The notes under the pieces: generated by a model
Seen by the model: only the letters and a program-made list of their open reading frames with translations
What the model was told of the DNA's origin: nothing
The model's database searches: none
Part shown: piece by piece, positions 2,686 through 39,690 of the stretch
How positions within the stretch are numbered: position 1 is the first letter of the stretch
Layout of the letters: every line of letters begins with the position of its first letter
Position numbers and translations under genes: made by a program
Source: Betaproteobacteria bacterium
Lineage (GTDB): Bacteria > Verrucomicrobiota > Verrucomicrobiia > Methylacidiphilales > UBA1321
Length of the DNA stretch: 47,965 nucleotides
Direction: 5' to 3'
Assembly (NCBI GenBank): GCA_903970275.1
Contig: CAJCIA010000183.1
Location: 1-47,965, forward strand

Positions 2686-2719
2686 GGTAGCCGCCGTCGG
2701 CTCGACGGCGGGGCGCGCC
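2686..2719 (+). repeat. REP-like palindrome, copy 1 (left half of pair 1)
   Basis: The copy begins with the foot GGTAG, continues with a hairpin whose arms read CCGCCGTCG and CGACGGCGG, and ends GCGCGCC. It faces copy 2 in inverted orientation, and the two together span 2686-2862 (177 bp). The arm sequence differs from the commonest copies (CCGCCG instead of CCGGCG), with the matching change in the other arm. Confidence 0.8.
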
Positions 2720-2832
2720 GGTGGATGCGGGCCTGGCAGGAGGCTTCGGGCGTTCCTCAGGAAGGGAATCGCAATCGAAGTAGGACGTGAATCGCGGAGC
2801 GGAGATGGCTTGGGAAACGGGCTCTTGTGGCC

Positions 2833-2862
2833 GCGACCGGCGTCGGGCCGACGCCGGCTACC
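2833..2862 (-). repeat. REP-like palindrome, copy 2 (right half of pair 1)
   Basis: Read on the minus strand it is GGTAG, then arms CCGGCGTCGG and CCGACGCCGG around a two-base centre, then TCGC. It is nearly identical to the copy at 18080-18109 and is the inverted partner of the copy at 2686. Confidence 0.85.
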
Positions 2863-3053
2863 CCGACGCTCGGCAGTCGGCGGCAACTTCCGGAGAGCTC
2901 ACGACTCGGTGAGAGTCGTGCTGAAAAAGGCTAGACCGAGATTTCTACAAGGAAGCGTCGTGAATGAGCGCCGGTTGGCATTCTGCTGTGCTATGTTGAC
3001 TGCAACTGCTTGAGACCATCGCGGCCATTTCACCCGGCGTCCCAACGCGGCCT

Positions 3054-3788
3054 TTACGGCCGGTCGGTCTTGCGCGCCGTCTCCTCACCGTTCTGTTCCA
3101 CCTTCTGCGTCTCGGACTTGATCTGGCCGCCGAGCTTCTGCGCCTCGTCCTTCGCGACCACCGCCGCCTGCTGCGCCGCGGGCGCGAGGTAGAACTTGAA
3201 AAGGTGGTAGTAAAGATCGACCACCTCGCGCGCGATGCTGAAGGCGTCCTCCTTGCGCACCACGCCGGCGTGCACTTGGGAGAGGTCGCGAATGCCCTCG
3301 CGGCGAAAGGCCAGCTTGGTGCGCGTGATGTGGTAGTAACTGGTCACGATCATCACGCTATGGAAGCGACGCGCGCGCATCTCAGCCGCCACGTCGCGGG
3401 CCGTGGCGTCGGTGTTGATCCCGCCGCGATCCTCCAGGATGGCGCGGCTGGGAATACCGTGGGCCATGAGGTAACGCGCCATGCCCGGGGCCTCGGAATA
3501 GCCGTCGCCCTCCACATGGTCCGCGCCACTGACAATGACAATCGGCACGCGGTTGGCGCGATAGACCTCGATGGCCTTGTCGAGCCGCTCCTTCAGCACG
3601 GGCGAGGGCTGGTCGTTGGCCTGCATGCCGGCGCCGAGCACCACGGCGCAATCCGCCTTCTCGCCCGAATCGTTCATGCCGTCATAGACGATCCATACCG
3701 CCGTGAGCGCAAACACCAGCACGGCGAGGGTCAGCAGCCGCGACAACAACCGGAAGAAACCGCGAATCATCGCCGCACGTTGCCGCAA
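3054..3788 (-). CDS. YdcF/SanA/ElyC-family (DUF218) membrane-anchored protein
   Basis: The protein has 244 residues. A short basic N-terminus and one hydrophobic segment (about residues 15-33, LLTLAVLVFALTAVWIV) would anchor it in the inner membrane with the rest outside. The DUF218 fold follows: DCAVVLGAGMQ near residue 42, IVIVSGAD near 83, and a later SVMIVTSYYHITRTKLAFRR segment, whose TSxxHxxR pattern is typical of the family. SanA and ElyC members affect envelope permeability and peptidoglycan or polysaccharide precursor metabolism, but the chemistry is unsettled. The last 40 residues are charged, alanine/glutamine/lysine-rich and outside the family core. It lies between two REP-bearing gaps on the same strand as its neighbours, with no sign of a tight operon. 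Family call is confident; substrate is unknown. Confidence 0.85.
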   Translation of the reverse strand: MRQRAAMIRGFFRLLSRLLTLAVLVFALTAVWIVYDGMNDSGEKADCAVVLGAGMQANDQPSPVLKERLDKAIEVYRANRVPIVIVSGADHVEGDGYSEAPGMARYLMAHGIPSRAILEDRGGINTDATARDVAAEMRARRFHSVMIVTSYYHITRTKLAFRREGIRDLSQVHAGVVRKEDAFSIAREVVDLYYHLFKFYLAPAAQQAAVVAKDEAQKLGGQIKSETQKVEQNGEETARKTDRP

Positions 3789-3921
3789 GAGTCCGGTCAG
3801 CGCCAGCCGGAACGCGGGTGGGATTTGATCATTTGATCTAAGCGCTAGTCACCGCGCTGACACCGTCAGTATTGGTTGATGATCGCGCCGGCTGAGATCT
3901 ATTTGTCATCGGAATTCTTTC

Positions 3922-3954
3922 GGCGCGACCGGCATCGGGCCGATGCCGGCTACC
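3922..3954 (-). repeat. REP-like palindrome, single copy with compensated arms
   Basis: Read on the minus strand it begins GGTAG, with arms CCGGCATCGG and CCGATGCCGG, then TCGCGCC. Compared with the usual CGTCG/CGACG arms, one G:C pair has become A:T in both arms, so the hairpin is kept. It ends one base before the stop codon of the TPR gene at 3956, on the 3' side of that gene. I could not find an inverted partner in the neighbouring 165 bp. Confidence 0.85.
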
Positions 3955-3955
3955 G

Positions 3956-4729
3956 TTACGTGATCTGGCGGCGCAGGGCTTTAGCTCGGCTAACCCAGAC
4001 GGCTTCGCGCCGGCGCTGAAAGTTGGTGGTGTATTCCGCGCCGTTGATCACCTCGTCGAGGTGGCGGGCGGCCTCCTCGCGCGAGCCGCCGGATTTCAGC
4101 AGCAGCTCCGCATACTGGACCCGCGCGCGGGAATATTGGTAAAGCGCCAGCACCTGCCGCCACGTCGCCAAGGCCGGCTCGGTCTGACCCGCCGCCGCCT
4201 GCGCCTCGGCCAGCGTCATGAGCGTGTAGCCGTAATCATGCTTGGGATTGACCGCGCAGACGCTGGTCAGAAGCGGCAGCGCCTCACCGGGCCGGTTCTG
4301 ACGCATGAGGCAGTTTCCCAGGTGGGCGCGTGTATCCTCGTCGCCGGGATCGCGATCGTAGGCCGCGCGGTACGACGTTTCCGCGTCCTGCAACTTGCCT
4401 TGGCTGAAGTAGATGTCCGCAAGCTGGAGATGCAGGTGCGCCTTGTCCAGGTGGTGAATCTCGGCCTTGAGCCGCGCGATCTGGCGCCGGTCGGCTGCCC
4501 CCGGCAGCTCGAAGCCAGCCAACGGGTTTCCGATTGGCCCCGCCTGCCGGTAGACCATCAAAAAGTAGAGCACTGCGGACAGCCCCCAACCGATGAAGAT
4601 GATAACGGCCCAGATGTACTCCCCTCGCCGCACCGCATCGACAAACATCCAAACCTGAAACGCGGTCACGACCAGCGCGAAGAGCCCGACGCCGCCGCCG
4701 CCGGCCAGTTGCAGGATCGTGTTCAGCAC
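3956..4729 (-). CDS. Membrane-anchored tetratricopeptide-repeat protein
   Basis: The protein has 257 residues. Two hydrophobic segments occupy about residues 13-33 and 38-60 (LFALVVTAFQVWMFVDA and YIWAVIIFIGWGLSAVLYFL), resembling the short N-terminal membrane module seen in PLDc_N-like proteins. From about residue 95 it carries three to four TPR-like helical hairpins, for example HLHLQLADIYFSQGKLQDAE and LGNCLMRQNRPGEALPLL. TPRs mediate protein contacts, so this is probably a membrane scaffold; no catalytic motif is visible. The start is the ATG before LNTILQLAGG, and a 249-bp gap separates it from the divergent hpnH, so its promoter should lie there. A REP-like hairpin abuts its 3' end. Partner unknown. 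Confidence 0.8.
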   Translation of the reverse strand: MLNTILQLAGGGGVGLFALVVTAFQVWMFVDAVRRGEYIWAVIIFIGWGLSAVLYFLMVYRQAGPIGNPLAGFELPGAADRRQIARLKAEIHHLDKAHLHLQLADIYFSQGKLQDAETSYRAAYDRDPGDEDTRAHLGNCLMRQNRPGEALPLLTSVCAVNPKHDYGYTLMTLAEAQAAAGQTEPALATWRQVLALYQYSRARVQYAELLLKSGGSREEAARHLDEVINGAEYTTNFQRRREAVWVSRAKALRRQIT

Positions 4730-4927
4730 CCTCTCTTAGTCCCAAAGCGTGTGGCGGGCGTCAATGGAACAAAGCCACCGCACTGTCAATCCGCGCAGGC
4801 TGTGGGGCTCGAATGGCAAAGATTACAACTTCATCCCCATCTCAGGCATGTCGGATCAACGTAGGCAATTTGCTCATAGTCAAAAGGTTATTCAGTTCTT
4901 GCCCCGCCGAATACTCGACACCTAATC

Positions 4928-4955
4928 TTGACAATGATCCCTCTGCCCGTACTCT
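4928..4955 (+). promoter_or_regulatory. Possible sigma70-type promoter of hpnH
   Basis: A perfect -35 hexamer TTGACA (4928-4933) is followed after 16 bases by TACTCT (4950-4955), a weak -10 match. This would start transcription about 15-20 bases before the ATG at 4979. The surrounding 150 bp is noticeably richer in A and T than the genes. The -10 match is poor, so this is tentative. Confidence 0.35.
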
Positions 4956-4978
4956 CCACCCTTTAATCGCACCCCACT

Positions 4979-5989
4979 ATGGTACCTATCTCCCAAGCCT
5001 GGACAGTCGCGTCGTACGTTGCTGTGCAAAAGTTCATCAAGGGCCGCAAGCGCTATCCGCTCGTCCTGATGCTCGAGCCTCTTTTCCGCTGCAACCTGGC
5101 CTGCGCCGGCTGCGGCAAGATCCAGTATCCCGACCACGTCCTGAGCAAGCGCCTCACCCCGCAGCAGTGCTTTGACGCGGTCGAGGAATGCGGCGCCCCG
5201 ATGGTCAGCATCCCGGGCGGCGAGCCGCTCATCCATCCGGAGATCAAGGAGATCGTCGACGGGCTGGTCGCGCGCAAGAAGTACATTTACCTCTGCACCA
5301 ACGCACTCCTGCTCAAGCGCAAGCTCGACCTTTTTACGCCTTCCAAGTACCTCACCTTCTCGATCCATCTCGATGGCCTGAAGGAGAACCACGACACCGC
5401 AGTGTGCCGCGACGGCACGTATGACACCGCCGTGGAAGCGATCAAGGAGGCGGTCAAGCGCGGCTTCCGCGTTTGCACGAACACCACCCTCTTCAATCAC
5501 GCCAACCCGGCCGAAGTGCGCGAGTTCTTCGACGTGGCGATGGACATGGGCGTCGAGGGCATGATGCTCTCGCCCGGCTACATCTACGAGAAGGCGCCGG
5601 ACCAGCAGGGCTTCCTGCATCGCGATACGAGCAAGCAGCTCTTCAAGCAGATCCTCGACCAGCCGAAGAAGAGCTGGAAGTTCAACCTTTCGCCCTTGTT
5701 CCTCAAGTTCCTGCAGGGCGACTTCGATTTCGAGTGCACGCCATGGGGCAGCCCGGCTTACAACATCTTTGGGTGGCAGAAGCCCTGCTATCTCCTCCAG
5801 GACGGCTACGTGAAGACCTTCAAGGAATACATGGAGGACACGGACTGGGACAGCTACGGCAACAAGAGCGACAACCCGAAGTGCCAGGACTGCATGGTTC
5901 ATTGCGGCTTCGAGCCCTCGGCTGTCGATGCTACCTTTGGTTCCTGGTCGGGCTTCCTGGCCACGGCCAAGGCCACTCTCACCGCCTAA
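4979..5989 (+). CDS. hpnH: Adenosyl-hopene transferase HpnH (radical SAM)
   Basis: HpnH adds the 5'-deoxyadenosyl group of S-adenosylmethionine to diploptene to give adenosylhopane, the entry step to extended (C35) hopanoids. The protein has 336 residues, the usual length. It contains the radical-SAM cluster motif CNLACAGC (CxxxCxxC) near residue 38, preceded by RYPLVLMLEPLFR, a strong signature of this family, and SIPGGEPLIHPE as the GGE-type SAM motif. A cysteine-rich tail (CQDCMVHCGFEPS) is also typical and may hold or shield a second site. The ATG at 4979 fits the family N-terminus (ISQAWTVASYVAVQKFIKGR). No squalene-hopene cyclase or other hpn gene is in the window. A small protein gene follows 14 bp downstream and probably shares the transcript. 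Confidence 0.93.
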   Translation: MVPISQAWTVASYVAVQKFIKGRKRYPLVLMLEPLFRCNLACAGCGKIQYPDHVLSKRLTPQQCFDAVEECGAPMVSIPGGEPLIHPEIKEIVDGLVARKKYIYLCTNALLLKRKLDLFTPSKYLTFSIHLDGLKENHDTAVCRDGTYDTAVEAIKEAVKRGFRVCTNTTLFNHANPAEVREFFDVAMDMGVEGMMLSPGYIYEKAPDQQGFLHRDTSKQLFKQILDQPKKSWKFNLSPLFLKFLQGDFDFECTPWGSPAYNIFGWQKPCYLLQDGYVKTFKEYMEDTDWDSYGNKSDNPKCQDCMVHCGFEPSAVDATFGSWSGFLATAKATLTA

Positions 5990-6003
5990 GCCCTCCGAGC
6001 GCC

Positions 6004-6396
6004 ATGCCAGCTGACGTCAAGACGGGTCCAGGCGCACGTCCTGCGACCCTGCAGGGAAGCGTGTTTGTGTTCCAGAGCGAGCAGGACCGAATCGAGGCGA
6101 TCGACAAGGCGTTTGATTACCGCGGCGATGTCACCCTGCAGGTCGCAGGTCAGCCGGTGGAAGGCTACATCTTCAACCGCGACGCTGCGGCCCGGCCCCC
6201 GCGGATCGAGCTTTTCGTCAAGGATAGCGACGAGCCCCGCATCATCCCCTACGCCGACATCGAGTCGATCGCCTTCACCGGTCGCGACACCGCCGATGGC
6301 AAGTCGTGGGATGCCTGGGTGAACAAGAAGGCGGAGCAGCGCCAGGCGGAAGCCGAGCGCCTCGCCGCCGAGGCGGCCGCCCGCGGCCACCTTTAG
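6004..6396 (+). CDS. Small conserved-looking hypothetical protein, co-transcribed with hpnH
   Basis: The protein has 130 residues, starting at the ATG 14 bp after the hpnH stop. It looks soluble, with no signal peptide or membrane segment. A beta-rich core (GSVFVFQSEQDRIEAIDKAF, then DVTLQVAGQPVEGYIFNRDA, then ADIESIAFTGRDTADGKSW) ends in an alanine/glutamate/arginine-rich helix. The pattern of short strands around VEGYIF and RIELFV suggests a small barrel, but I do not recognise the family. The composition and codon use match neighbouring genes, and the frame stays open at high GC with a plausible start, so I regard it as real. Adjacency to hpnH hints at a hopanoid or membrane link; this is inference only. 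Confidence 0.7.
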   Translation: MPADVKTGPGARPATLQGSVFVFQSEQDRIEAIDKAFDYRGDVTLQVAGQPVEGYIFNRDAAARPPRIELFVKDSDEPRIIPYADIESIAFTGRDTADGKSWDAWVNKKAEQRQAEAERLAAEAAARGHL

Positions 6397-6407
6397 TCAG
6401 GCTTTTA

Positions 6408-6450
6408 CCGGGGACTCCTGACCCCGGCGTCCGGTAGTGACCTACTGGAC
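6408..6450. other. Two back-to-back stem-loops between orf6004 and the hybrid kinase
   Basis: The first hairpin has arms CCGGGG (6408-6413) and CCCCGG (6422-6427) around an 8-base loop. The second has arms GTCCGGTAG (6429-6437) and CTACTGGAC (6442-6450), nine pairs with one G:U, around TGAC. Neither is followed by a T run, so they are not standard intrinsic terminators. They could stabilise the 3' end of the hpnH transcript or block read-through into the kinase operon. They lack the GGTAG foot of the REP-like family. Confidence 0.6.
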
Positions 6451-6516
6451 GGTCAGTGAGCTTTCGCTAGCTTCGTTAAACTGCGGTTTTCTGGCCGTGT
6501 CCTTCGCCTATTCCTC

Positions 6517-9500
6517 ATGAGACTTTCTATCGGCGTCAAAATCGCTCTCGGCTTTGCGTTGGCCCTGACCGCGCTGCTTTGCCTCGGCTTCCTCACCTTC
6601 AGCGAACTAAGCGCGCTGAACGTGGAATCCTCTTGGGTCGATCACACCTACCAGGTGGAGTCGAAGCTCCAGAACCTGACCGCCAACCTGGCCCGGGCGG
6701 AGAGCAGCGCCCGCGGTTACCAGCTGAGCAACCTGCCCTCCCTGCAGACCGAGGCGGATGCAGCCGCCGCCGCGCGCAGCGAGGTCGCGCAAATCCGGTC
6801 CCTCACCTCCGACAATCCCACGCAGCAGGAACGGCTCGACCGTCTGGAACCGCTTATCCAGCGGCGGCTGGATAGCCTGCAGCAGATCACCAGCACGCCC
6901 AACCTCCCCGCCGCCGATCGCGATACGCTGGTGCGCGGCGGCGAGTCGGTCATGGATCAGGTGCGGCAGGTCATCAACGACATGCAGGCCGAGGAAGCAC
7001 GCCTGCTCAAGATCCGCAGCGATGGCGAGGCGCAACTTTCCAATCATGTCCGCCTCACACTGGAGTGGGGCACCGCCCTCGCCTTTCTGCTCATCGGCAG
7101 CGCCGGGTTGCTGATCACCTACAGCATCACCAACCCGCTGCGCCTTCTCGCCGATGGCGCCTCCCGACTGGGCGGCGGCGATTACACGCACCGGGTGCTC
7201 GTGCGCTCGCGGGACGAGGTGGGGCAGCTCGCCACCAACTTTAATCGCATGGCCGAGCAGGTGGAGGACCGGCAGCGCACGCTGGCCGAGCAGGATTGGC
7301 TGAAGGGCGGCCTGACCCGCCTGGCCGGGTTGCTTCAGGGTCAGCGAGATCCGGCAGAAGCGTGCCGCCTTGTGCTGACAGAATTGGCTGCGCTGGTGGG
7401 TGCGCACAGTTCGGCCCTCTACGTGACTGCTGGCGACGAGACGCCTGTGCTCCAGCTTCAGGCCACCTATGCCGCCGACGCCGCTCCTGAGGAAATTGAA
7501 CCCGGCAAGGGCCTCGTCGGCCAGGCGTATCTCGATCGCCAGCGCATCCAGCTCAACGAAATCCCGGAGGGCTATTTTCGCATCAACTCGGCGCTGGGCC
7601 ATGGGACGCCGCGCTCCTTGCTCATCGAACCTGCCGTCTATGACAACCAGGTGCGTGCCATCCTCGAACTGGCGCTGCTCAAGCCGCTCACGGACACACA
7701 ACTCGCGCTGATCGAACGCGTGGCCGAGAATCTTGGCGTCATCCTGACGACGATTGCCGCCAGCCAGCGCACCGAGGAGCTTCTGACGCAGTCCCAGGCG
7801 CTGGCCGGTGAATTGGGCACGGCCAACCGCGACCTGCGCCAGTCCGAACTTCTCCTCCAGGAGCAGCAGGAAGAGCTCAAGCAGACCAACGAGGAGCTGG
7901 AACAAACCAACGAGGAACTTCAGCAGACCAACGAGGAAGTAGAGGAAAAAGCCAACCTGCTCTCGACCCAGAAGAAGCAGCTGGAGAAGACCAATCGCGA
8001 GATCGACGTGGCGCGCACAGCGCTGCAGGAAAAGGCCGAGCAGATCGCCCAGACCTCCCGCTACAAGTCCGAGTTCCTTGCCAACATGTCGCACGAGTTG
8101 CGTACGCCGCTCAACAGCCTGCTCATCCTTTCCAAGATCCTGGCCGAGAATCCGGACGGCAACCTGAGCGAAAAGCAGGTTCAGTATGCGACGACCATCC
8201 AGTCCTCCGGCCACGATTTGCTCGAGCTGATCAACGAGGTGCTGGACCTGTCGCGCATCGAGTCGGGCGTGGTCGAGATCGAGACCGAGGAGACGCGGCT
8301 TTCCGACCTTCGCGACTTCGTCGAGCGCACCTTCCGCCCCATCGCGGAGAACAAGAAGCTCGAATTTTCCACGGAACTGGCCGAGGGACTTCCGGCCACG
8401 CTTGTCACCGACCAGCGGCGCCTGGAGCAGGTGCTCAAGAACCTGCTCTCGAATGCCTGCAAGTTCACCGAACAAGGCTCGGTGCGGCTGCGCATCGCCC
8501 CGGCCACCAGCGGCTGGGAAGCGGACAAGACGTCACTCAGCCGGGCCAGCCAGGTCATCGCGTTCAGCATCATGGACACGGGCATCGGCATTCCGGAAAA
8601 CAAGCAGAAGCTGATTTTCGAGGCCTTCCAGCAGGCTGATGCCGGCACCTCGCGCAAGTACGGCGGCACCGGGCTTGGGCTGTCCATCAGCCGCGAGCTG
8701 GCCAGCCTGCTCGGCGGCAGCCTCCAGGTCTCGAGCCGGCCGAACGAGGGCAGCACGTTCACACTTCTCCTGCCCGCCACGTTGAGCCCGGCGGACTCCA
8801 AGCCGGCGTCCTTCAAGTCGGCCCCGCCTCCTGCGTCCAAGCCCGTTCCCTCCAGCACTCCGTCACCGTCGCCCTCCCCGCTGACGGAGACGCCGCTGAT
8901 CGACGATGACCGCGCCAACCTGCAGCCGGGTGACATGCTCCTTCTCATCATCGAGGACGATCCCAACTTCGCCGGCATCCTGCGCGATTTCGCCCGGGAA
9001 AAAGGCTTCAAGACGGTGGTGGCCTCGACCGTGAACGCAGGCGTGGCCATGGCGCGGGAGCTCCATCCATCCGCGATTACGCTCGACCTGCACCTGCCCG
9101 ACAACGATGGCTGGCTGGTGCTCGACCAGCTCAAGCACGACCCACAGACGCGCCACATTCCTATCCACATCATTTCCGCCGACGAGGAACGGGACCGCAG
9201 CCTGCGCCTTGGCGCGGTCTCGCATTTCCAAAAACCGGTCACGCGCGAGATCATCGACCAAGCCCTCAGCCAGACCATCGACTTCCTCAAGCGTCCGCTG
9301 AAGAACCTCCTCATCATCGAGGACGACGCGAACGAGCGGCAGGCCATCGTGGCGCTGATCGGCAACGGCGATGTGCACAGCACCGCCGTCGGCTCGGCCG
9401 CCGAGGCCTTCGCGGAACTGGACCGGATCCGGTACGACTGCATCGTGCTCGATCTCGGCCTGCCGGACAAAAACGGACTCGATCTCATCCGGGAGATTCA

Positions 9501-10104: not shown

Positions 10105-10159
10105 ATTCCGGTCTCCTGACTGGCGTGCGGGCGGCAGTTGAACGAAGCTGGCTGCGGTC

Positions 10160-13144: not shown

Positions 13145-13147
13145 CCC

Positions 13148-16846: not shown

Positions 16847-17923
16847 ATGGCTCCTTCCTTTTCACATGATGTCGTGGTGGTTGGTGCCGGCCTGGCGGGT
16901 TCAAGCGCCGCGCTGGCGCTGGCCCGCCGCGGGAACCGGGTGGCGCTGCTCGATCGCGCCAGCTTTCCGCGCCCAAAGGTGTGCGGCAACTGCCTTCACC
17001 CGCGCACTTGGAAAATCTGGGAGCAGCTCGGTCTCGCAGATTCCTTCCGCGCCCTCCCGCACACGGATATCGCCGGGTTCGACATTCAATGCGAGGGACG
17101 GCCGGTGCACCGGCTCGATTTTCAGGCGCAGGGACCGCGCTCCATCTCGCGCTACGTACTGGACGATTGGCTGCTTGGCCACGCTCGCGAGGCTGGCGTC
17201 GAGGTGTTTCCCGGCACGACGGTGACCGCCGTTGACGCGGAGCAGGGAACGGTGCGGACCTCGGGCGGCGAGTTTCGCGCGCGCTTGGTCTTCGGCGCGG
17301 ACGGGCGCAATTCGCTGGTGGCGCGTCAGGCGAGGCTGATGCCACCGCCGCGCCGCTGCCATCGCGTGGCGTGGCAGGCCACGTTGCTCGCGCCCCTCGA
17401 GCTCGACCGCCACGTTTATCTCCAGGTCTTTGAGGATGGTTATTTCGGCTACTGCCGCTTTGGCGATGACGGGGCGGTGGTAAGCTTGGTGCTCGATGCA
17501 CGCCGCAGCGCCGATCCGGTTGCCGCCGTGCGCCGCTATCTGCCGCACCTGCCCGAGCAGGAGTGGCTGCGCATGAGCCCGATCACCCGCGCGCCGGCGC
17601 GGCCGGGCCGGGATCGCGTGTGGCTCGTCGGCGATTCAGCTCACGTCATGGAGCCGTTCACCGGCGAAGGCATGTCCTTCGCCCTCGCCACTGGGCTGCT
17701 GGCCGCGGAGAGCGCCGCGCCCGCCCTCGATAGCGACAGGATCGCCCCTGCGCTGGCCGATTACACCCGCAAGCATCGCTCGCTCTACAATCGCGGCGCC
17801 TGGGTGAACACGTTCACCCGTTGGATTCTGGGCGAGCCGCAACGGCTAACGCATCTGCTGCGCCGTGTGCCCTTTCCGCGCTGCGCGCTGGATTTGCTTT
17901 CACGCCAGATACAGCTGGCTTAG
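16847..17923 (+). CDS. FAD-dependent oxidoreductase, geranylgeranyl-reductase-like
   Basis: The protein has 358 residues. The dinucleotide-binding motif VVVVGAGLAGSSAALALARR follows a nine-residue leader. Next come ASFPRPKVCGNCLHP, the PxxKxCG signature of the geranylgeranyl reductase/halogenase-like group, ARLVFGADGRNSLVARQA, and the second FAD motif VWLVGDSAHVMEPFTGEGMS. Members saturate or hydroxylate prenyl or polyketide chains. The frame extends upstream to 16760, but the ATG at 16847 sits at the proper distance from the FAD motif. It is the last gene of the operon, 67 bp after the ketosynthase. A REP-like pair starts eight bases after its stop. Confidence 0.85.
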   Translation: MAPSFSHDVVVVGAGLAGSSAALALARRGNRVALLDRASFPRPKVCGNCLHPRTWKIWEQLGLADSFRALPHTDIAGFDIQCEGRPVHRLDFQAQGPRSISRYVLDDWLLGHAREAGVEVFPGTTVTAVDAEQGTVRTSGGEFRARLVFGADGRNSLVARQARLMPPPRRCHRVAWQATLLAPLELDRHVYLQVFEDGYFGYCRFGDDGAVVSLVLDARRSADPVAAVRRYLPHLPEQEWLRMSPITRAPARPGRDRVWLVGDSAHVMEPFTGEGMSFALATGLLAAESAAPALDSDRIAPALADYTRKHRSLYNRGAWVNTFTRWILGEPQRLTHLLRRVPFPRCALDLLSRQIQLA

Positions 17924-17930: not shown

Positions 17931-17963
17931 GGTAGCCGCCATCTGCGGGATGGCAGTCGCGCC
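17931..17963 (+). repeat. REP-like palindrome, divergent copy (left half of pair 2)
   Basis: It starts with GGTAG, then CCGCCATC, a short centre, GATGGC, and ends GTCGCGCC. Arms differ from other copies at several sites, but most changes are matched in the opposite arm. It begins eight bases after the stop of the FAD oxidoreductase gene. With 18080-18109 it makes an inverted pair of 179 bp. Confidence 0.7.
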
Positions 17964-18079
17964 ATGGCACATATCTAGTCATGGATGGATGTGCTTGGCG
18001 CGATCCAAAGGAGATCGCCGCTTGGATTAGTTAACGAGCGCGGGAAGATTGTCTAGCGCGCGATTGGTGTCCTTTCCTC

Positions 18080-18109
18080 GCACCCGGCGTCGGGCCGACG
18101 CCGGCTACC
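18080..18109 (-). repeat. REP-like palindrome (right half of pair 2)
   Basis: Read on the minus strand it is GGTAG followed by arms CCGGCGTCGG and CCGACGCCGG. It is identical through foot and hairpin to the copy at 2833-2862. Confidence 0.85.
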
Positions 18110-18199: not shown

Positions 18200-18236
18200 A
18201 AAAAAAAGCGGCCCGGAAATCCGGACCGCTTTTTTG
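18200..18236 (-). terminator. Intrinsic terminator of the RRM gene
   Basis: On the minus strand a run of A leads into GCGGTCCGG, loop ATTT, CCGGGCCGC, then a run of T. The stem is nine positions long with one mismatch and is flanked by A and T tracts on both sides, so it could also act on plus-strand transcripts. It lies 16 bases past the stop codon of the gene at 18252-18641. Confidence 0.9.
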
Positions 18237-18251
18237 TGAAGCAGGAAGCGC

Positions 18252-18641
18252 TTAGTACCGGCCGCGACCGCGGTCGCCGCCGCGATCTCCGCCACGGCGA
18301 TCTCCACCGCCGCCACGACGATCACCGCCGCCGCCACCGCCACCACCGCGGAATCCACCGCCGCCACCACCACCACCGCCGCCTTCGCGGGGCTCCATGG
18401 GACGGGCTTCATTCACCGTCAGGGCGCGGCCGTTGATTTCCTGGCCATGGAACTTCGCGATGGCCGCCTGGGCTTCGTCGGCCGTTCCCATCTCCACGAA
18501 GCCGAAGCCGCGAGGGCGGCCCGTCACGCGGTCGTTGATCATTTGCACCCGCGCGACATTGCCCGCTTGGGCAAAGAGATCGGTTAGGTCATTTTCCGTC
18601 ATGCTGAAGGGCAGATTGCCCACATAGAGTTTAACGCTCAT
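18252..18641 (-). CDS. Glycine-rich RNA-binding protein (single RRM)
   Basis: The protein has 129 residues. One RRM fills about residues 1-80: RNP2 is KLYVGNLPFS and RNP1 is RGFGFVEM, with aromatic residues in the RNA-contact positions. The remaining 45 residues are a Gly/Arg tail with long Gly runs and RGG-like units (GGDRGGDRGRGRY), typical of bacterial glycine-rich RRM proteins that act as RNA chaperones, often cold-induced. The gene has one of the few strong ribosome sites here, AAGGAGA about four bases before the ATG, suggesting high expression. It has its own terminator. The Gly-coding stretch is a GGC/GGT-rich tandem tract that could vary in length. Confidence 0.92.
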   Translation of the reverse strand: MSVKLYVGNLPFSMTENDLTDLFAQAGNVARVQMINDRVTGRPRGFGFVEMGTADEAQAAIAKFHGQEINGRALTVNEARPMEPREGGGGGGGGGGFRGGGGGGGGDRRGGGGDRRGGDRGGDRGRGRY

Positions 18642-29543: not shown

Positions 29544-29604
29544 GCCCAATTGTCTGGTCCGTGCAGTTTGACTCCTGAACAAGATCCTCGACTCCAATCA
29601 CCTC

Positions 29605-31203: not shown

Positions 31204-31227
31204 CCGGCGCTGCATTCGCGGGCGGTC

Positions 31228-31248
31228 GCAGAAACTCGTTGTCACCTC
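31228..31248 (+). repeat. 21-bp direct repeat, right copy
   Basis: It is identical to 27842-27862. It lies between the esterase stop and the nuoI start, 16 bases before the nuoI ATG. Its TTGTCA could serve as a -35 box (TACGAT follows at 16 bases), but that would put the transcription start inside nuoI, so a promoter role for nuoI is unlikely. Confidence 0.85.
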
Positions 31249-31264
31249 GTCCGCTTCCATTACG

Positions 31265-31792: not shown

Positions 31793-31819
31793 TCGGCGTC
31801 TGATTCATCCGCCCCAGCC

Positions 31820-32479: not shown

Positions 32480-32481
32480 CC

Positions 32482-32787
32482 ATGGAGATCACGCTTAACC
32501 ACTACCTCGCCGTCGCCGCGGTGCTGTTCGTCATCGGGCTGATGGGTGTGATCATGCGGCGCAATCTGCTCATCATCTATATGTCGCTCGAGATGATGCT
32601 GCAGGCGGCGAACCTGACCTTCGTCGCCTTTTCCCGGTTCGACAACCTGGTCGACGGCCAGGTCTTTGTCTTCTTCGTCATCACCGTAGCAGCCGCGGAG
32701 GTCGCGGTCGGCCTGGCGCTCATCGTCGCGCTCTATCGGCTGCGCCAGACCACCAGCGTGGACGCGCTGACCACGCTCAAGTTCTAA
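32482..32787 (+). CDS. nuoK: NADH-quinone oxidoreductase subunit K
   Basis: The protein has 101 residues, the standard length, with three membrane helices. The conserved glutamates used in proton transfer are visible: one in [18 protein letters not shown] and one in [18 protein letters not shown]. The start ATG is two bases after the nuoJ stop region, as is usual for this pair. Confidence 0.94.
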
Positions 32788-32805
32788 GCACCTCCGCACG
32801 ACTCC

Positions 32806-34767
32806 ATGCTTCCCTCTTCCGGACTCGCCTGGTGGCTGCTGATCCTGCCGCTGCTCTCGGCGGCCTCGACGCTGGTCTATCTCCACCGCAAGCCGAACAT
32901 GGCGATCTTCGCCTCGGTCGCGTCGGCTTCGCTCTGCTTTCTGCTCGCGCTCGGCATCGCCGCCGGGTCGGTGGGGGAGCCCACGCCCTTCGAGTGGATG
33001 TCGTTCCCCGGCCTGCAGATCGATGTCGGCATGATCCTCGACCCCCTTTCCAAGGGCATGCTGCTTGTGGTTACAGGCGTCGGGTTGCTCGTCCACATCT
33101 TTTCCATCGGCTACATGGCGCACGATCCGGCCAAGGCGCGCTTCTTCGGCGGGCTCTCCATCTTCATGTTCTCGATGACCGGCATCGTCATCGCGACGAA
33201 CCTGATCGAGATGTTCTTCTTCTGGGAGGGCGTGGGCCTGAGTTCCTACCTGCTCATCGGTTTCTGGTACGACCGCGAATCAGCGGCGCAGGCGGCGAAC
33301 AAGGCCTTCGTCTGTAACCGGCTGGCCGACTTTGGATTCATGGCCGGGATCTTGACGCTTTGGATGATGACCGGGTCGGTGTCGATCACGCAGGACGCGC
33401 TGCAGGGTGCGCTGCTCCACCCCTCACCGGTGGCGGAGAACCACGCGCTGGCCACCGCCACGCCACCGGTCACACCGGCATCGCGGCAGCCGCTGCTCAC
33501 GAATGGGGGTGGCGTGCAGCAATTCTCCGGGTGGCTCGCCTTCGTCCTCGTGCTCGGCCTCTTCGCCGGTTGCATGGGCAAGTCGGCCATGTTCCCGTTC
33601 CACGTCTGGCTGCCGGACGCGATGGAGGGCCCGACGCCCGTCTCCGCGCTGATCCATGCCGCCACCATGGTCGCGGCCGGCGTCTATATGCTCTGCCGCG
33701 TTTATCCCCTGCTGCTGCTTTCGCCGCCTGGGATGCTCTTCATCGCCGGCATCGGCTGCTTTACTGCCATTTTTGCGGCGCTCATCGCCGTCCAGCAAAA
33801 CGACATCAAGCGCATCCTCGCCTATTCCACGCTGTCGCAGCTTGGCTACATGGTCATGGCCGTGGGCTGCCGGGGACCCGCCGCCGCGATGTTTCACCTG
33901 AGCACGCACGCGTTCTTCAAGGCGCTGCTCTTCCTCGCCGCGGGTTCGGTCATCCACGCGCTGCACGACGAGCAGGACATCTGGAAGATGGGCGGGCTCG
34001 CCCGGAAAATCCCGCTGACGTTCTGGACCTTCCTCATTGGCTATCTGGCGCTGATCGGCTTTCCCGGTTTTGCCGGCTTCTTCAGCAAGGATGTCATCCT
34101 CGCCGTCGCGTTTCAGGCGCATCCGATCTTCTTTTGGGTGGGCGCGTTCACTGCCTTCCTCACCGCTTTCTATATGACGCGGCTCGTCGTCGTGGCGTTC
34201 TTCGGCCGCGCGCGGTCGAACGCGGCTGAGCATCCCCATGAATCCGGCGCCGTCATGACCGTGCCGCTGATCATCCTGGCGGTCTTCTCCGCCGTCGGCG
34301 GCTTCGCCTTGGGCATCGAGGGCTTTTACCATGGCTGGTCGATCTCCCAATTGCGCAGCACCGGGCAGCTTCCCTCCACGGGCGCAACGCCCCAGTTGCC
34401 GGCACTCGGCCTCTTGCTGGGCACCGTGGTCCCGCTCATCATGGTTTTCGGCGGCATCTTTCTTGCCTTCGCGCTCTACCGCGGCCGCGATTCCGATCCG
34501 CTCCACATCAAGGTACTCGCGAACAAGTTCTATTTCGACGAGCTTTACGATCGCCAGCTCGTCGGCGGCCAGCAGCTCTTCGCCCGCTTCCTCGGCTGGA
34601 TCGACGACTGGGTACTGGAAGGCGCGATCCTGCGCGGCGCAGCCTACCTCAGCGTCGGCGTGGGCGAACTCTGCAAGCTGATCCAGACCGGCAGCCTGCA
34701 GACCTACGCGTTCGTCCTGAGCATCGGTGGCGCCCTGCTCGTTTACTTCACCCTTTTCGCGCATTGA
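32806..34767 (+). CDS. nuoL: NADH-quinone oxidoreductase subunit L
   Basis: The protein has 653 residues. This antiporter-like subunit is at the distal end of the membrane arm. Landmarks are FFFWEGVGLSSYLLIGFWY with the conserved Glu, MGKSAMFPFHVWLPDAMEGP with the conserved Lys, SALIHAATMVAAGVYMLCRV, and LAYSTLSQLGYMVMAVGCRG. The C-terminus has the long lateral-helix region and closes with membrane helices. There is an extra proline/alanine/threonine-rich loop (residues about 205-235) that is not in E. coli NuoL. It lies 18 bp after nuoK. Confidence 0.94.
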   Translation: MLPSSGLAWWLLILPLLSAASTLVYLHRKPNMAIFASVASASLCFLLALGIAAGSVGEPTPFEWMSFPGLQIDVGMILDPLSKGMLLVVTGVGLLVHIFSIGYMAHDPAKARFFGGLSIFMFSMTGIVIATNLIEMFFFWEGVGLSSYLLIGFWYDRESAAQAANKAFVCNRLADFGFMAGILTLWMMTGSVSITQDALQGALLHPSPVAENHALATATPPVTPASRQPLLTNGGGVQQFSGWLAFVLVLGLFAGCMGKSAMFPFHVWLPDAMEGPTPVSALIHAATMVAAGVYMLCRVYPLLLLSPPGMLFIAGIGCFTAIFAALIAVQQNDIKRILAYSTLSQLGYMVMAVGCRGPAAAMFHLSTHAFFKALLFLAAGSVIHALHDEQDIWKMGGLARKIPLTFWTFLIGYLALIGFPGFAGFFSKDVILAVAFQAHPIFFWVGAFTAFLTAFYMTRLVVVAFFGRARSNAAEHPHESGAVMTVPLIILAVFSAVGGFALGIEGFYHGWSISQLRSTGQLPSTGATPQLPALGLLLGTVVPLIMVFGGIFLAFALYRGRDSDPLHIKVLANKFYFDELYDRQLVGGQQLFARFLGWIDDWVLEGAILRGAAYLSVGVGELCKLIQTGSLQTYAFVLSIGGALLVYFTLFAH

Positions 34768-34774
34768 TCCCCGC

Positions 34775-36313
34775 ATGACCCTCCTCGCGAGCAACGATTT
34801 TCACTTGCTGCCACTGCTGCTTGCGCCGCTGGTGGCAATCGCGTTCATTCTCGGCAAGGCCCCGCCGCGGCTGACCGCCGGGCTGGCCTGCGCCTTCAAC
34901 CTGCTCTACGCGATCGGCCTCATCCTTTTTTATCCGGCGGCGCAGGGCGGCTACCAGTACGAGATGAGTTACGCCTGGGTGAACATGCCCGGTCTGCCGC
35001 CGATCCATTTTCATCTCGGCGTGGACGGCATCAGCCTGCCGCTGGTTTTCCTCACCGCCATCGTCAGCTTCGCGGCCGTCGCCATCGCACCCGGGCTCGT
35101 GCGGCGCCCGGCGGAATACTACTGCTACCTGCTGCTCATGTCGCTCGGCGCAATGGGCGCGTTCACCTCGCTCGATCTCTTCTTCTTCTACATCTTCCAC
35201 GACTTCGCGCTCATTCCGACCTTCCTGCTCATCGGCATCTGGGGTTCGCAGAACCGCCAATTCGCCTCGTTCCAGGTGACCATCTACCTGCTGGCGGGCA
35301 GCCTCATCCTGCTCGCCGGCCTGGTGGCGCTGGTCATGGAATTGCCGCCGCCGGACCGCACCTTCGACATTCCTACCCTGCAGGCGTACATCTCCGCGCA
35401 TCCGCTTTCGCACGAGTCGCAGAACATCATCTTCCTGCTCCTCACCGTCGGGTTCGGCATCCTCGTTGGCCTGTTTCCCTTCCACTCGTGGGCGCCGCCG
35501 GGCTATGCCTCCGCGCCGCCCGCCGCCGCGATGCTCCACGCCGGCATCCTCAAGAAGTACGCGCTCTATGGCATGATCCGCATCACCATCCCGATGCTCC
35601 ACGACGGCTTCGTTTTCTGGCAGTGGCTGTTGCTTCTGCTGCTCGCGGGCAACTTTCTGTACGCCGGCTTCATCACGCTCGCGCAAAAGGAACTGCCCAC
35701 CATGCTCGGCTTCTCGAGCATCATGCACATGGGCTACCTCTTTCTCGGCATTGCGTGCTGGAACATCATCGGCGTGACCGGCGCGGTGGTGCTCATGGTC
35801 GCGCACGGCCTCAGCGCCGCGCTGCTCTTCGGCTTGAGTGGCGAGATCACGCACCGCTCGGGCGAGAACCGCTTCTCCGAGCTTGGCGGTCTGGCCAAGC
35901 GCGCACCGGTGCTCGCCATTCTCTTCAGCTTCGCCTCCATGGCTTCCATGGGCGTGCCGGGCCTGGCGAACTTCGCAGGCGAGCTTATGGTCTTTTTCGC
36001 CTCGTTTTTGCCCGGCAACGTTCCGGCCATGGCGCTGATCGCGATTTACGGCACGGTCATCACTGCCATCTTCCAGCTGCGCGCGATCAAAAACGTCTTC
36101 TACGGCCCCATGCCGCAGCGGTACGCCGCCGACACGCCTGCGCCGCCCGGCTCCGGCGTCATTGCCCTTCCCGCCATGACCGATGTCTCCTCGCTGGCCG
36201 AGCGGGCGCCCTACGTGCTGCTCACGCTCGCGTCGCTCGGCATCGGCTTCATGCCGTTCCTGCTTATTCATCTCGTGCAGCCGACCGTGACTCTGCTGCC
36301 GTTCATGAAGTAG
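34775..36313 (+). CDS. nuoM: NADH-quinone oxidoreductase subunit M
   Basis: The protein has 512 residues. It is the middle antiporter-like subunit. I use the ATG at 34775 (MTLLASNDFHLLPLLLAPLV), seven bases past nuoL; the open frame upstream overlaps nuoL and is not family-like. Typical segments: IHFHLGVDGISLPLVFLTAI, FFYIFHDFALIPTFLLIGIWG (His in place of the usual Glu context should be checked by alignment), GLFPFHSWAPPGYASAPPAA and LAQKELPTMLGFSSIMHMGY. It lies three bases before nuoN. Confidence 0.93.
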   Translation: MTLLASNDFHLLPLLLAPLVAIAFILGKAPPRLTAGLACAFNLLYAIGLILFYPAAQGGYQYEMSYAWVNMPGLPPIHFHLGVDGISLPLVFLTAIVSFAAVAIAPGLVRRPAEYYCYLLLMSLGAMGAFTSLDLFFFYIFHDFALIPTFLLIGIWGSQNRQFASFQVTIYLLAGSLILLAGLVALVMELPPPDRTFDIPTLQAYISAHPLSHESQNIIFLLLTVGFGILVGLFPFHSWAPPGYASAPPAAAMLHAGILKKYALYGMIRITIPMLHDGFVFWQWLLLLLLAGNFLYAGFITLAQKELPTMLGFSSIMHMGYLFLGIACWNIIGVTGAVVLMVAHGLSAALLFGLSGEITHRSGENRFSELGGLAKRAPVLAILFSFASMASMGVPGLANFAGELMVFFASFLPGNVPAMALIAIYGTVITAIFQLRAIKNVFYGPMPQRYAADTPAPPGSGVIALPAMTDVSSLAERAPYVLLTLASLGIGFMPFLLIHLVQPTVTLLPFMK

Positions 36314-36316
36314 ACC

Positions 36317-37867
36317 ATGCTGCACCTCCTCAATTCCAACCTTCTGCCTTACTTCGCGCCGGAACTCCTCGTCACGGTCTGGGCGATGGTGCTCCTGCTC
36401 GGCGACGCGTTCTTCGAGTTCACGCCGCGGCAGACCGCGAATCTCGCGCTGGCCGGCTTGGCCGTGGCGGCGGTCGAGACGCTGCTGCTGGACAGCGCGC
36501 CCATCGTCTTCTGGAACGGCATGTGCATCTGGGACGGCTCGGCCAAGTTCTTCGATATCTTCTTCCTCGCCGTCGCCGCGCTCGTCATCTGGATGGGCGA
36601 CGAGGTGCAGGCACCGGTGGAGTACGGCGGCGAGTTCGCCATCCTGCCGCTCTTCACCACCGTGGGCCTCATGCTTCTCGCCTCTGCGAACGATTTCATG
36701 CTCCTCTTCGTCGCGCTGGAGCTGGTCACCATCTCGTTCTACATCCTGGTCGCCTACCGCCGGCGCACCCTGGCCGCGCTGGAGGCGGGCGTGAAATATC
36801 TCATCCTCGGCGGACTCTCCTCCGCTTTCCTCGTCATGGGCGTCGCCTACATTTTCGGGGTGATGGGCACCACGCGGTTTGACGTGCTGGTGAACGCGTT
36901 CCACGGCGGCGTGCCGGTCATGGCGGCATTCGGGCTCATCCTCGTGCTCGTAGGCATCGGCTTCAAGATCGCGATGGTGCCCTTCCACGTCTGGGCGCCG
37001 GACGTCTACGAGGGCGCCCCCAACTCGATCACCGCGTTCCTGTCGGTCGGCTCGAAGGCGGGCGGACTCATCATGCTCCTGCGTATCGCGCTCGGCGCCT
37101 TTGGCGGTGATGGTGGAACCGCCGTCTGGTACCCGGTGCTCACGGTCGGCGCAATTCTCTCGCTGCTGCTGGGCAATCTCGCTGCCATCCCGCAGCGCAA
37201 CCTCAAGCGGCTGCTCGGCTATTCCAGTATCGGCCACAGCGGCTTCATCCTCGTCGCCGTAATCGGCGCAGCCGCCGCGCTGCCCCACCTGCCCCGCCCA
37301 CAGATGGCCGACATCAACACCGGCCAGGTCGCGGTCAGCGTCTACCTTGTCACCTATCTGCTGGCCACCTTCACCTGCTTCATCGTGCTCGCCCTGCTTC
37401 GCACCCGGCTGCCGGGCTTAGAGATTCATCATCTCGCCGGACTTTCGCAACGCGCTCCGCTGTTGGCCGCGGCCTTTGCGCTCGCGCTTATTTCCCTGGC
37501 CGGTATTCCGCCCCTGAGCGGCTTCGTGGCCAAGGCGTTGGTTGTGCTGGTGGCGTGGAATCGCGGCCTCTACGTGCTGCTTGCCCTCGTGCTTTTCGCC
37601 GCCGTGGCCGCGCTCTATTATTACCTTGGCCCGATCAAGGCGATGTATTGGTCGGAGCCGCTCGACCGCACGCCCATCATCGTCAGCCGGCCGGCCACCG
37701 TTGTTCTTTCCCTGCTTATCGCGCTCATGATTCTCACCGGCTTCTGGCCGCAATCGATTGCCTGCCTGATCAGCGGCGCCACCCTCGCCCGCGAAGGCGC
37801 GGCGCAAGGCACGCTTACCGCCGCCCCGCCAACCCCATCGCCAAGCGTCGCGCAAGCCACGCCCTGA
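36317..37867 (+). CDS. nuoN: NADH-quinone oxidoreductase subunit N
   Basis: The protein has 516 residues. It is the antiporter-like subunit nearest the quinone arm. Conserved segments: FVALELVTISFYILVAYRRR with the Glu of the proton path, GFKIAMVPFHVWAPDVYEGA with the Lys, LLGYSSIGHSGFILVAVIGA, and LISLAGIPPLSGFVAK. A proline/threonine-rich tail follows the last helix. It ends the nuo run; no terminator hairpin with a T tract is visible in the 58 bp before the next gene. Confidence 0.94.
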   Translation: MLHLLNSNLLPYFAPELLVTVWAMVLLLGDAFFEFTPRQTANLALAGLAVAAVETLLLDSAPIVFWNGMCIWDGSAKFFDIFFLAVAALVIWMGDEVQAPVEYGGEFAILPLFTTVGLMLLASANDFMLLFVALELVTISFYILVAYRRRTLAALEAGVKYLILGGLSSAFLVMGVAYIFGVMGTTRFDVLVNAFHGGVPVMAAFGLILVLVGIGFKIAMVPFHVWAPDVYEGAPNSITAFLSVGSKAGGLIMLLRIALGAFGGDGGTAVWYPVLTVGAILSLLLGNLAAIPQRNLKRLLGYSSIGHSGFILVAVIGAAAALPHLPRPQMADINTGQVAVSVYLVTYLLATFTCFIVLALLRTRLPGLEIHHLAGLSQRAPLLAAAFALALISLAGIPPLSGFVAKALVVLVAWNRGLYVLLALVLFAAVAALYYYLGPIKAMYWSEPLDRTPIIVSRPATVVLSLLIALMILTGFWPQSIACLISGATLAREGAAQGTLTAAPPTPSPSVAQATP

Positions 37868-37925
37868 TCGCCCATCCCGGCACCCGACTTGCATCGGGGG
37901 ATAGTTCGCGCATACTCAATATGTT

Positions 37926-38306
37926 ATGGAAGCAACCGTCAGCGCCGCTCCCCCCGTCGCCTATAAGATCGGCAACGAGAAGCTGTGCAAGATCACGCCC
38001 AAGGCCTCCGAGAAGCTGACCTCGCTGCTCGTCCGCCAGGGTCGGCCGCAGGGCGCGCTTCGCATCGCGGTCATTGGCGGCGGCTGTTCCGGGCTGCAGT
38101 ACAAGATGGACTTGGTGGACGGCCCGGCCAATCGCGACATCCTCGTGCGCTCGCAGGAGGTCAACGTGGTGATCGATCCCAAGAGCGCGCTTTTTGTTTC
38201 CGGCTCACTCCTCGATTTCAGCGAGGACCTGCAGAAGGGTGGCTTCAAGGTCACCAATCCGAGCGCCGCCGCGCATTGCTCCTGCGGCGAGAGCTTCAGC
38301 GCCTAG
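37926..38306 (+). CDS. A-type iron-sulfur carrier (ErpA/IscA/SufA family)
   Basis: The protein has 126 residues. A-type carriers deliver Fe-S clusters to apo-proteins. The three ligand cysteines have the classic spacing: C54 in IGGGCSGLQYKMDL and C118/C120 in HCSCGESFSA. SGSLLDFSEDLQKGGFKVTNPSA is the usual C-terminal body. Placed directly after Fe-S-rich complex I genes, it could serve them, but the membrane-arm subunits other than NuoI carry no clusters, so the link is only suggestive. The ATG at 37926 leaves a short Ala/Pro leader before the fold. The paralog (ErpA, IscA or SufA) cannot be decided by eye. Confidence 0.92.
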   Translation: MEATVSAAPPVAYKIGNEKLCKITPKASEKLTSLLVRQGRPQGALRIAVIGGGCSGLQYKMDLVDGPANRDILVRSQEVNVVIDPKSALFVSGSLLDFSEDLQKGGFKVTNPSAAAHCSCGESFSA

Positions 38307-38318
38307 GCGCGCCCTTTT

Positions 38319-39515
38319 ATGATGATCCGCTCCCTCCGCGGCCCCGGCCGTGTTGTCGCCTGCTGGCTGATGCTCGGTTGCGCCCCGTTGTTCGCCGCCG
38401 ACGACAAGACCCCGCCCCCCGCCGGCGGCGCCGACCCTGACGCGTCGACCACCACGTTCGGCGACACGATGACGAAGCAGTACTTCGGCCGCAATCCGCA
38501 CAACGGGATGGTGACGCTCTACACGCTCACGAACAAAAACGGCATGAGCGTCAGCATCATGGATTACGGCGCGACCATCACCAGCATCCGCGTACCGGAC
38601 CGCAACGGGAAGTTCGACGATGTGGTGCTCGGCTACGACCGCTTCGCGCCCTATCTCGCCATGAAGGACTATTTTGGCGCCACCGTTGGCCGCTACGCCA
38701 ACCGGATCGCGCGCGGCCGCTTCACGCTGAACAAGGTCAACTACCAGCTCGCGATCAACAATCCGCCCAACGCGCTGCACGGTGGCTGGTTCGGCTTCAA
38801 TCGCCGCCTGTGGAACTTCGAGCAGGTGGACTCCGACATCCCGGCCGTCCGCCTCACCTACCTGAGCAAGGACGGCGAGGAAGGTTATCCCGGCAACCTC
38901 TTCGTCAGCGTCACCTTCTCGCTCAACGACGACAACGAGCTGCGCATCGCCTACGCCGCCACCACGGACAAGACGACGATCCTCAATCTCAGCAACCACT
39001 CCTATTTCAACCTCGGCGGCGCCGCCAGCGGCACCATCCTCGACGATCTCGTTACGCTCCACGCCGACAAGTTCACGCCGGTTGACGCCACGCTTATCCC
39101 CACCGGCGAGATCAAGGATGTGGCCGGGACGCCCTATGATTTCCTCCAACCCACCGCGGCCGGCGCGCATCTCAAGGAGCTCAAGAACAAGCCGCTGGGT
39201 TACGACTTCAACTACGTGCTGAACAAGGGCTACTTCTCCGACTACGGTCTTGCCGCCACCGTGCAGGATCCCGGCAGCGGCCGACGCCTCGACATCTCCA
39301 CGGACCAGCCGGGCATCCAGTTCTACACGGGCAACTTTCTGACTGGCTCCTATGTTGGCCGCGAACGCAAACGCTATCCCCAATACGCCGCCATCGTCCT
39401 GGAGACCCAGCACTTTCCCGACTCGCCAAACCATGACAATTTTCCCAGCACCGTGCTGCAGCCCGGCGAGGATTTCCACAGCACGACGGTCTACAAGTTT
39501 AGCGTTGATAAATAG
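38319..39515 (+). CDS. galM: Secreted aldose 1-epimerase (galactose mutarotase)
   Basis: The protein has 398 residues. It interconverts alpha and beta anomers of aldoses. It carries an apparent signal peptide (GPGRVVACWLMLGCAPLFAAD), so it probably works in the periplasm, unlike cytoplasmic E. coli GalM. Family landmarks: MDYGATITSIRVPDRNGKFD, VGRYANRIARGRF, NALHGGWFGFNRRLW, LNLSNHSYFNLGG with the catalytic His, and VLETQHFPDSPNH with the Glu region. The start is 12 bp after the Fe-S carrier gene. A REP-like repeat begins eight bases after its stop. It may act together with the secreted glycosidases encoded in the window. Confidence 0.92.
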   Translation: MMIRSLRGPGRVVACWLMLGCAPLFAADDKTPPPAGGADPDASTTTFGDTMTKQYFGRNPHNGMVTLYTLTNKNGMSVSIMDYGATITSIRVPDRNGKFDDVVLGYDRFAPYLAMKDYFGATVGRYANRIARGRFTLNKVNYQLAINNPPNALHGGWFGFNRRLWNFEQVDSDIPAVRLTYLSKDGEEGYPGNLFVSVTFSLNDDNELRIAYAATTDKTTILNLSNHSYFNLGGAASGTILDDLVTLHADKFTPVDATLIPTGEIKDVAGTPYDFLQPTAAGAHLKELKNKPLGYDFNYVLNKGYFSDYGLAATVQDPGSGRRLDISTDQPGIQFYTGNFLTGSYVGRERKRYPQYAAIVLETQHFPDSPNHDNFPSTVLQPGEDFHSTTVYKFSVDK

Positions 39516-39523
39516 ACCAACGA

Positions 39524-39557
39524 GGTAGCCGGCGTCGTCCCGACGCCGGTGCGCGCC
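39524..39557 (+). repeat. REP-like palindrome (left half of pair 3)
   Basis: It begins GGTAG, with arms CCGGCGTCG and CGACGCCGG around TCC, then ends TGCGCGCC. It begins eight bases after the aldose epimerase stop. With 39662-39690 it makes an inverted pair of 167 bp. Confidence 0.85.
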
Positions 39558-39661
39558 ACAAGAGTTCGCGTCTTCGTGGCGTATTCCCCGCGCGCATCGT
39601 CGGCAAAGGCGCTCCTTGATCGCCCGAGGGAAGCGGCTTCGCTTTCCCAAGCGCCCCGAGC

Positions 39662-39690
39662 GCGACCGGCGTCTTCCGACGCCGGCTACC
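39662..39690 (-). repeat. REP-like palindrome (right half of pair 3)
   Basis: Read on the minus strand it is GGTAG, arms CCGGCGTC and GACGCCGG around a GGAA centre one base shorter than in other copies, then TCGCGC. It faces the copy at 39524 across a 104-bp spacer with no gene. Confidence 0.85.

Follow-up and report, generated by a model that had tools for sequence, protein, structure and literature searches.

Seven intergenic palindromes in the 47,965-nucleotide stretch analyzed here (the window) are very probably REP units of the GTAG superfamily, which would spread as inverted, REPIN-like, non-autonomous doublets of about 181 bp and be mobilized in trans, most likely by a RAYT of the HUH-Y1, TnpA_REP type encoded elsewhere in the genome, on contig C112. 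The genome measures 2.93 Mb, is 87% complete, and is spread over 271 contigs, of which C183 is the window. Judged by sequence criteria, the repeats qualify as GTAG REPs and as REPINs, and the C112 RAYT as their cognate.

Repeat copies in the window and across the genome

All seven palindromes that the first-pass annotation had reported were found at the positions it gave. They lie outside predicted genes, as had been claimed, and each scores 45 to 57 bits against the family's covariance model, whose training set included six or seven of them. A complete unit consists of GGTAG, a first hairpin (HP1) with a 9-bp stem and a 3-nt loop, a second hairpin (HP2) directly after it, and then TC. The palindromes and the larger elements that contain them are as follows.

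2686-2711, plus strand: palindrome, GGTAG foot and HP1 with the compensated stem variant CCGCCGTCGG; 49.7 bits; this stem also occurs beside the C112 RAYT
2837-2862, minus strand: palindrome, found by pattern and covariance model
3929-3954, minus strand: palindrome, found by pattern and covariance model
17931-17956, plus strand: palindrome, found by pattern and covariance model; degenerate, still detected
18084-18109, minus strand: palindrome, found by pattern and covariance model
39524-39549, plus strand: palindrome, found by pattern and covariance model
39665-39690, minus strand: palindrome, found by pattern and covariance model
2686..2862: head-out doublet, REPIN-like, 177 bp, of unit 2686 (plus) and unit 2862 (minus)
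2786..2862, minus strand: REP unit, GGTAG 2862-2858, HP1 2857-2837, HP2 TCGCGG...CCGCGA; 57.3 bits; two adjacent hairpins in the fold
3877..3954, minus strand: single REP unit, GGTAG, compensated HP1 variant CCGGCATCGG, HP2 TCGCGCCG...CGGCGCGA, then TC; 54.5 bits
17931..18109: head-out doublet, 179 bp, of degenerate unit 17931 (plus, 45.6 bits) and unit 18109 (minus, 50.8 bits)
39524..39690: head-out doublet, 167 bp, of B-type unit 39524 (plus), HP2 TGCGCGC..GCGCGCA, and A-type unit 39690 (minus)
39524..39598, plus strand: REP unit, GGTAG, HP1 (39529-39549), HP2 (39550-39596) and TC

Because six of the seven copies pair head-out (2686/2862, 17931/18109, and 39524/39690), the window holds three doublets and one single unit. 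In the first doublet, unit 2686 reads GGTAGCCGCCGTCGGCTCGACGGCGG and carries the B-type foot GGCGCGCC, and unit 2862 has the A-type HP2 TCGCGG..CCGCGA; about ten other copies in the genome match this doublet over its length at 70 to 79% identity. Folding z scores are -3.75 for the single unit 3877..3954 and -3.11 for unit 39524..39598, for which no shuffled sequence folds equally well. A search of the window against Rfam gave no family match above the gathering score.

Training a simple gene finder on the codon usage of the fetched loci gave 39 predicted genes in the window (92% coding). The neighbors of the repeats are ordinary genes, encoding ATP-grasp/Alpha-E, DUF218, TPR, FAD oxidoreductase, RRM, aldose epimerase, and subtilase proteins. 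For example, copy 3929-3954 adjoins the stop codon of the TPR gene at 3956-4729 (minus strand), and doublet 17931..18109 lies 3' of a gene ending at 17923. A terminator-like palindrome, separate from the repeats, is present at about 18203-18237.

At the genome level, the analysis drew on searches by pattern and by model and on about 250 kb of retrieved sequence. The exact core, GGTAGCCGGCGTCGG-N0..4-CCGACGCCGG, has 41 matches in the genome (22 forward and 19 reverse), and its reversed-pattern control has none. The covariance model, trained on 27 copies, found at least 103 copies scoring above 25 bits, a lower bound on copy number because the best 150 of 8,961 candidates were scored. A looser pattern, GGTAGCCGNCG-N7..10-CGNCGG, which also takes in sister stem families, matches 231 times, against 1 match in the control. 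The genome-wide excess that the first-pass annotation proposed as a check on its REP reading is therefore present. The commonest stem in the genome, CCGGCGTCGG, is missing from 61 other genomes of the order, so the family appears to have been amplified in the host lineage. High G+C content is all that speaks for chance palindromes in GC-rich DNA, a reading that the two pattern controls and the 61 genomes refute and that we regard as vanishingly improbable.

Unit structure, doublets, and placement

GGTAG, which served as the search seed, is present in 73/73 aligned units, with HP1 directly behind it. The HP1 stem occurs in at least six pairwise compensated variants (CCGGCGTCGG, CCGCCGTCGG, CCGGCATCGG, CCGCCATCGG, CCCGCGTCGG, and CCGACGTCGG). 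The GCGC-rich end noted in the first-pass annotation is the first arm of HP2, a stem of 6 to 8 bp that closes about 32 nt and spans 45 to 47 nt in 65 of 75 units. An HP2 stem of at least 6 bp forms in 70/79 units; when arms were exchanged 500 times between units of one type, the average was 33 and the highest count 45. Single-strand folding gave the predicted pair of adjacent hairpins in all four units folded. HP2 comes in two types: type A is TCGCG..CGCGA, and type B is either [G/T]GCGCG..CGCGC[A/C] or GGCTCG..CGAGCC.

Where neighboring copies lie less than 250 bp apart, 34 of 41 pairs are head-out, with a length mode of 181 to 182 bp. By HP2 type, these 34 pairs comprise 28 A+B, 2 A+A, and no B+B combinations; the remainder could not be typed. 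This near-constant length and nearly invariable A+B composition make the doublet the likely mobile unit (a REPIN) on sequence grounds. The regularity is due in large part to shared descent, which itself points to the doublet as the unit that is copied.

The intergenic bias that had been proposed as a further check also held in the fetched sequence, in which 80 of 81 family copies fall outside predicted genes (250 kb, 81% coding). Convergent gene ends border 23 of 59 gaps bearing a REP of any family and 13 of 127 gaps without one (Fisher p of about 1e-5), a comparison made within loci chosen for carrying copies. This enrichment would suit hairpins recruited as RNA elements, acting as transcription ends or as stabilizers of mRNA 3' ends, whose number is set by selection and not by transposition; the hairpins are also very stable, and such roles for REPs are proposed by Di Nocera et al. 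(2013, PMC3733652). However, no T-run follows either hairpin in the copies listed, so the repeats are unlike intrinsic terminators, which we ruled out, and selection alone does not account for A+B doublets of nearly constant length (about 181 bp), for a GGTAG that is conserved while lying outside the stem, or for copies beside RAYT genes. We consider it quite improbable that recruitment as RNA elements explains the number of the hairpins, although they may have a secondary RNA role.

RAYT genes and the putative mobilizer

The first-pass annotation had predicted that a RAYT gene elsewhere in the genome would drive these elements and had proposed looking for one flanked by the same repeat. Five genes in the genome score above the cut-off of the model NF047646 (REP_Tyr_transpos); one of the five contains an in-frame TAG, and three family copies flank the gene on C112.

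C112:247-690: RAYT gene, flanked by three family copies, HP2 included
C112:220-245, 789-814, and 935-960: family copies, 41 to 50 bits with the window model

The flanking units have a B-type HP2 and the stem CCGCCGTCGG, which in one of them begins with T; the same stem is found in window unit 2686. They stand in direct rather than inverted orientation, as do the copies at 32 of 54 related RAYTs. The gene encodes an intact protein of 148 aa (P0001) that scores 91.4 bits against a cut-off of 80, and its best PDB match is E. coli TnpA_REP (4ER8; E = 1e-9, 41.5 bits). Overall similarity to TnpA_REP is low and the flanking repeat has a different stem, but the two proteins align over the region of the HxH, W-Q..H..R, and Y-x3-N motifs. 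The catalytic HxH, Y, and N are invariant in 12 aligned proteins, that of C112 included, and its alignment to 4ER8 conserves W-Q-(x4)-D-H-(x2)-R, which corresponds to the residues that read GTAG in E. coli (W94, Q95, E/D100, H101, and R104; PMC6006769).

The other four RAYTs were ruled out as drivers by their flanks: those on C114 and C264 stand beside another stem family (TGTAG-CGGCGGTC..), that on C167 beside GGTAG-CCGGCGATG.., and that on C72 beside GGTAG-CCGGCGCTG... Since the C112 flanks carry CCGCCGTCGG, one compensated pair away from the commonest stem CCGGCGTCGG, and since the 271-contig assembly is only 87% complete, it could lack a better-matched RAYT, in which case the repeats would still be REPs and C112 would represent a sister subfamily. 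In line with this, a further stem family, CCGTCGACCT, has no RAYT in the assembly, and congener G033 has a RAYT that stands beside a similar stem. Against it, the units beside the C112 gene have their foot, loop, HP2 geometry, and TC end in common with the window family and are recognized by its model, and stem variants differing by one pair coexist within single doublets such as 2686/2862. The latter can be likened to the Y and Z REPs of E. coli, which share one RAYT (PMC6006769). We therefore judge a missing driver unlikely, and the C112 RAYT is the preferred candidate.

Relatives of this protein offer a wider view of the pairing. Among 80 named relatives, nearly all from Verrucomicrobiota or sister groups (PVC), 54 lie between matched REPs, whose foot is mostly GGTAGGG. 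The taxonomy of these relatives assigns the window to Verrucomicrobiota. Distance between RAYTs correlates with distance between REP stems (Mantel r = 0.39, p = 0.0002, n = 46), with r = 0.29 inside the GGTAGGG group. Closer to the host, GGTAGCCG repeats occur in all seven congeners, at 18 to 183 copies each, and none were found in other genera of the family; the congener RAYTs of the C112 clade have their own repeat stems on this common foot. The flanking copies and the covariation of RAYTs with REPs across the phylum thus point to the C112 RAYT as the putative mobilizer.

Comparison with congeners is also consistent with insertion at individual sites. Gene order near 17.9 kb and 39.5 kb is kept at about 70 to 75% identity, and at these two window sites the orthologous gaps of congeners showed no GGTAG hairpin with the exact stem. 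At 39.5 kb, the corresponding gene ends lie 189 bp apart in congener G034 and 376 bp apart in the window, a difference close to the length of the 167-bp element. No exact empty site or insertion junction is readable because the congeners are only about 70 to 75% identical.

That the doublet moves, where it is cut, exactly which segment is mobile, what HP2 does, and that the system is active today are inferred from these data. On single-stranded DNA, GGTAG and HP1 would form the RAYT binding site, with GTAG as the guide, and the catalytic tyrosine would nick and rejoin the strand beside this site. The doublet would be copied into intergenic DNA by such nick-and-rejoin steps, with HP2 and the following TC as part of the unit.

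Relation to known systems and significance

The proposal of the first-pass annotation that the REP/RAYT system of enterobacteria and pseudomonads operates here in a different phylum is supported in its REP/RAYT reading, but such an occurrence is not new. According to Di Nocera et al. (2013, PMC3733652), the verrucomicrobium Opitutus terrae is "highly enriched in GTAG repeats"; the paper also describes structured spacers and heterodimers of REPs, and two SLSs in the CGTC-3 dimers of A. tumefaciens. Repeats of this kind were thus already known, Verrucomicrobiota included. As described there, GTAG REPs of O. terrae and other bacteria resemble the host family in several respects: the GTAG tail lies 5' of a G+C-rich stem that varies by compensated changes; dimers are head-out, and heterodimers occur; positions are intergenic (with a preference for convergent or unidirectional gaps in the published families); and a genome has several families, with RAYT genes flanked by the repeats. 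Compared by description with the O. terrae repeats, the host family differs in its stem CCGGCGTCGG, specific to the host genome within its order, and in the covarying HP2 of about 46 nt that follows HP1 in roughly nine-tenths of units. For subclass 2.4, REP stems that have three G-C pairs at their base are on record (PMC6006769).

REPINs (Bertels and Rainey 2011, PMC3116915) and E. coli BIMEs likewise appear to spread as two inverted REPs, and the pairing of Y with Z2 REPs in BIMEs parallels the heterodimers of the host. The host doublet is longer, however, at about 181 bp, and its asymmetry lies in HP2 (A, TCGCG..; B, [G/T]GCGCG..) and not in HP1. The IS200/IS605 elements are alike in their HUH-Y1 transposase, subterminal hairpins, and guide tetranucleotide, but the host repeats far outnumber the gene, which is not IS-like. 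In a scan that did not include C112, the RAYT model outscored the IS200 model for all three of the genome's own RAYTs that matched both.

What is distinctive of the host family is the regular second hairpin together with the A+B asymmetry. A second hairpin is found behind HP1 in some relatives of the RAYT, for example as a shared ccgtcgcc..ggcgacgg foot at four loci (L203, L216, L227, and L228), and one of at least 6 bp is missing from 83% of 186 tails of relatives. The long-loop HP2 coupled to the host stem occurs only in the host genome among the sequences examined. We tentatively raise the possibility, itself rather doubtful, that HP2 and TC serve as a second functional part of the substrate for transposition, and that the A and B feet make the doublet ends non-equivalent, so that the doublet would be a directional miniature transposon and not two independent REPs. 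The left and right ends of IS200/IS605 would be the model for such non-equivalent ends.

The host genus bears on the question of how REPINs move. In assemblies of such genomes, the repeats may cause breaks and false homologies. A single genus holds nine related RAYT genes, almost all of which have a distinct repeat stem on the common GGTAGCCG foot, and the wider phylum adds dozens more RAYTs, mostly paired with GGTAGGG, a natural set from which rules for how RAYTs read their repeats could be drawn. Within this set, the fixed HP2 and the A+B asymmetry of the host family suggest a second recognition element.

RAYT genes and REPs elsewhere in the source genome

The RAYT genes on contigs C264 (L001/L025) and C114 (L002) of the source genome, G000, fall in a different clade from the C112 RAYT, the putative driver of the window's REP family, and have inverted TGTAGCGGCGGTCTATGACCGCCG repeats on their flanks. 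On C264 the gene contains one in-frame TAG and looks decayed. Two further RAYT/REP pairs are present:

C167 (L003/L112), RAYT/REP pair, REP stem GGTAGCCGGCGATG..
C72 (L004/L110), RAYT/REP pair, REP stem GGTAGCCGGCGCTG..

In several REPs of these two pairs, GGAATG follows a short second hairpin. The genome also contains GGTAGCCGTCGACCTCCGGGCGACGG repeats (L087, L091, L092, L093, and L103), for which we found no RAYT in the G000 assembly; in the congener G033, one RAYT (L158) is bordered by a similar stem. Either the GGTAGCCGTCGACCTCCGGGCGACGG repeats of G000 are orphan REPs, or their RAYT gene is missing.

Apparent doublet duplication and window features

Doublets of two head-out REP units with different second hairpins (A+B) also occur as a pair, apparently through recent local duplication:

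C249, 1937-2391 (L062), two near-identical A+B doublets, 94 bp apart

Between a REP doublet and an RRM-protein gene, the window itself carries a GC-rich palindrome preceded by an A-run and followed by a T-run, likely a bidirectional intrinsic terminator:

18203-18237, A-run, palindrome, and T-run
18252-18641, minus strand, RRM-protein gene

Separately, positions 1-953 of the window are 86% identical to positions 1-953 of C268, another contig of the G000 assembly, reflecting either a paralogue or a strain mixture in the assembly.

Related REPs in other organisms

RAYT-flanking REPs in four other Verrucomicrobiota (L203, L216, L227, and L228) share a near-identical 29-nt second hairpin (ccgtcgcc..ggcgacgg), preceded by differing first stems. 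In an Armatimonadetes MAG (L202), a related RAYT is accompanied by a pair of GGTAGCCGCC-type REPs; among the sequences examined, the GGTAGCCGCC foot was otherwise found only in the window's genus, and transfer or misbinning is possible.
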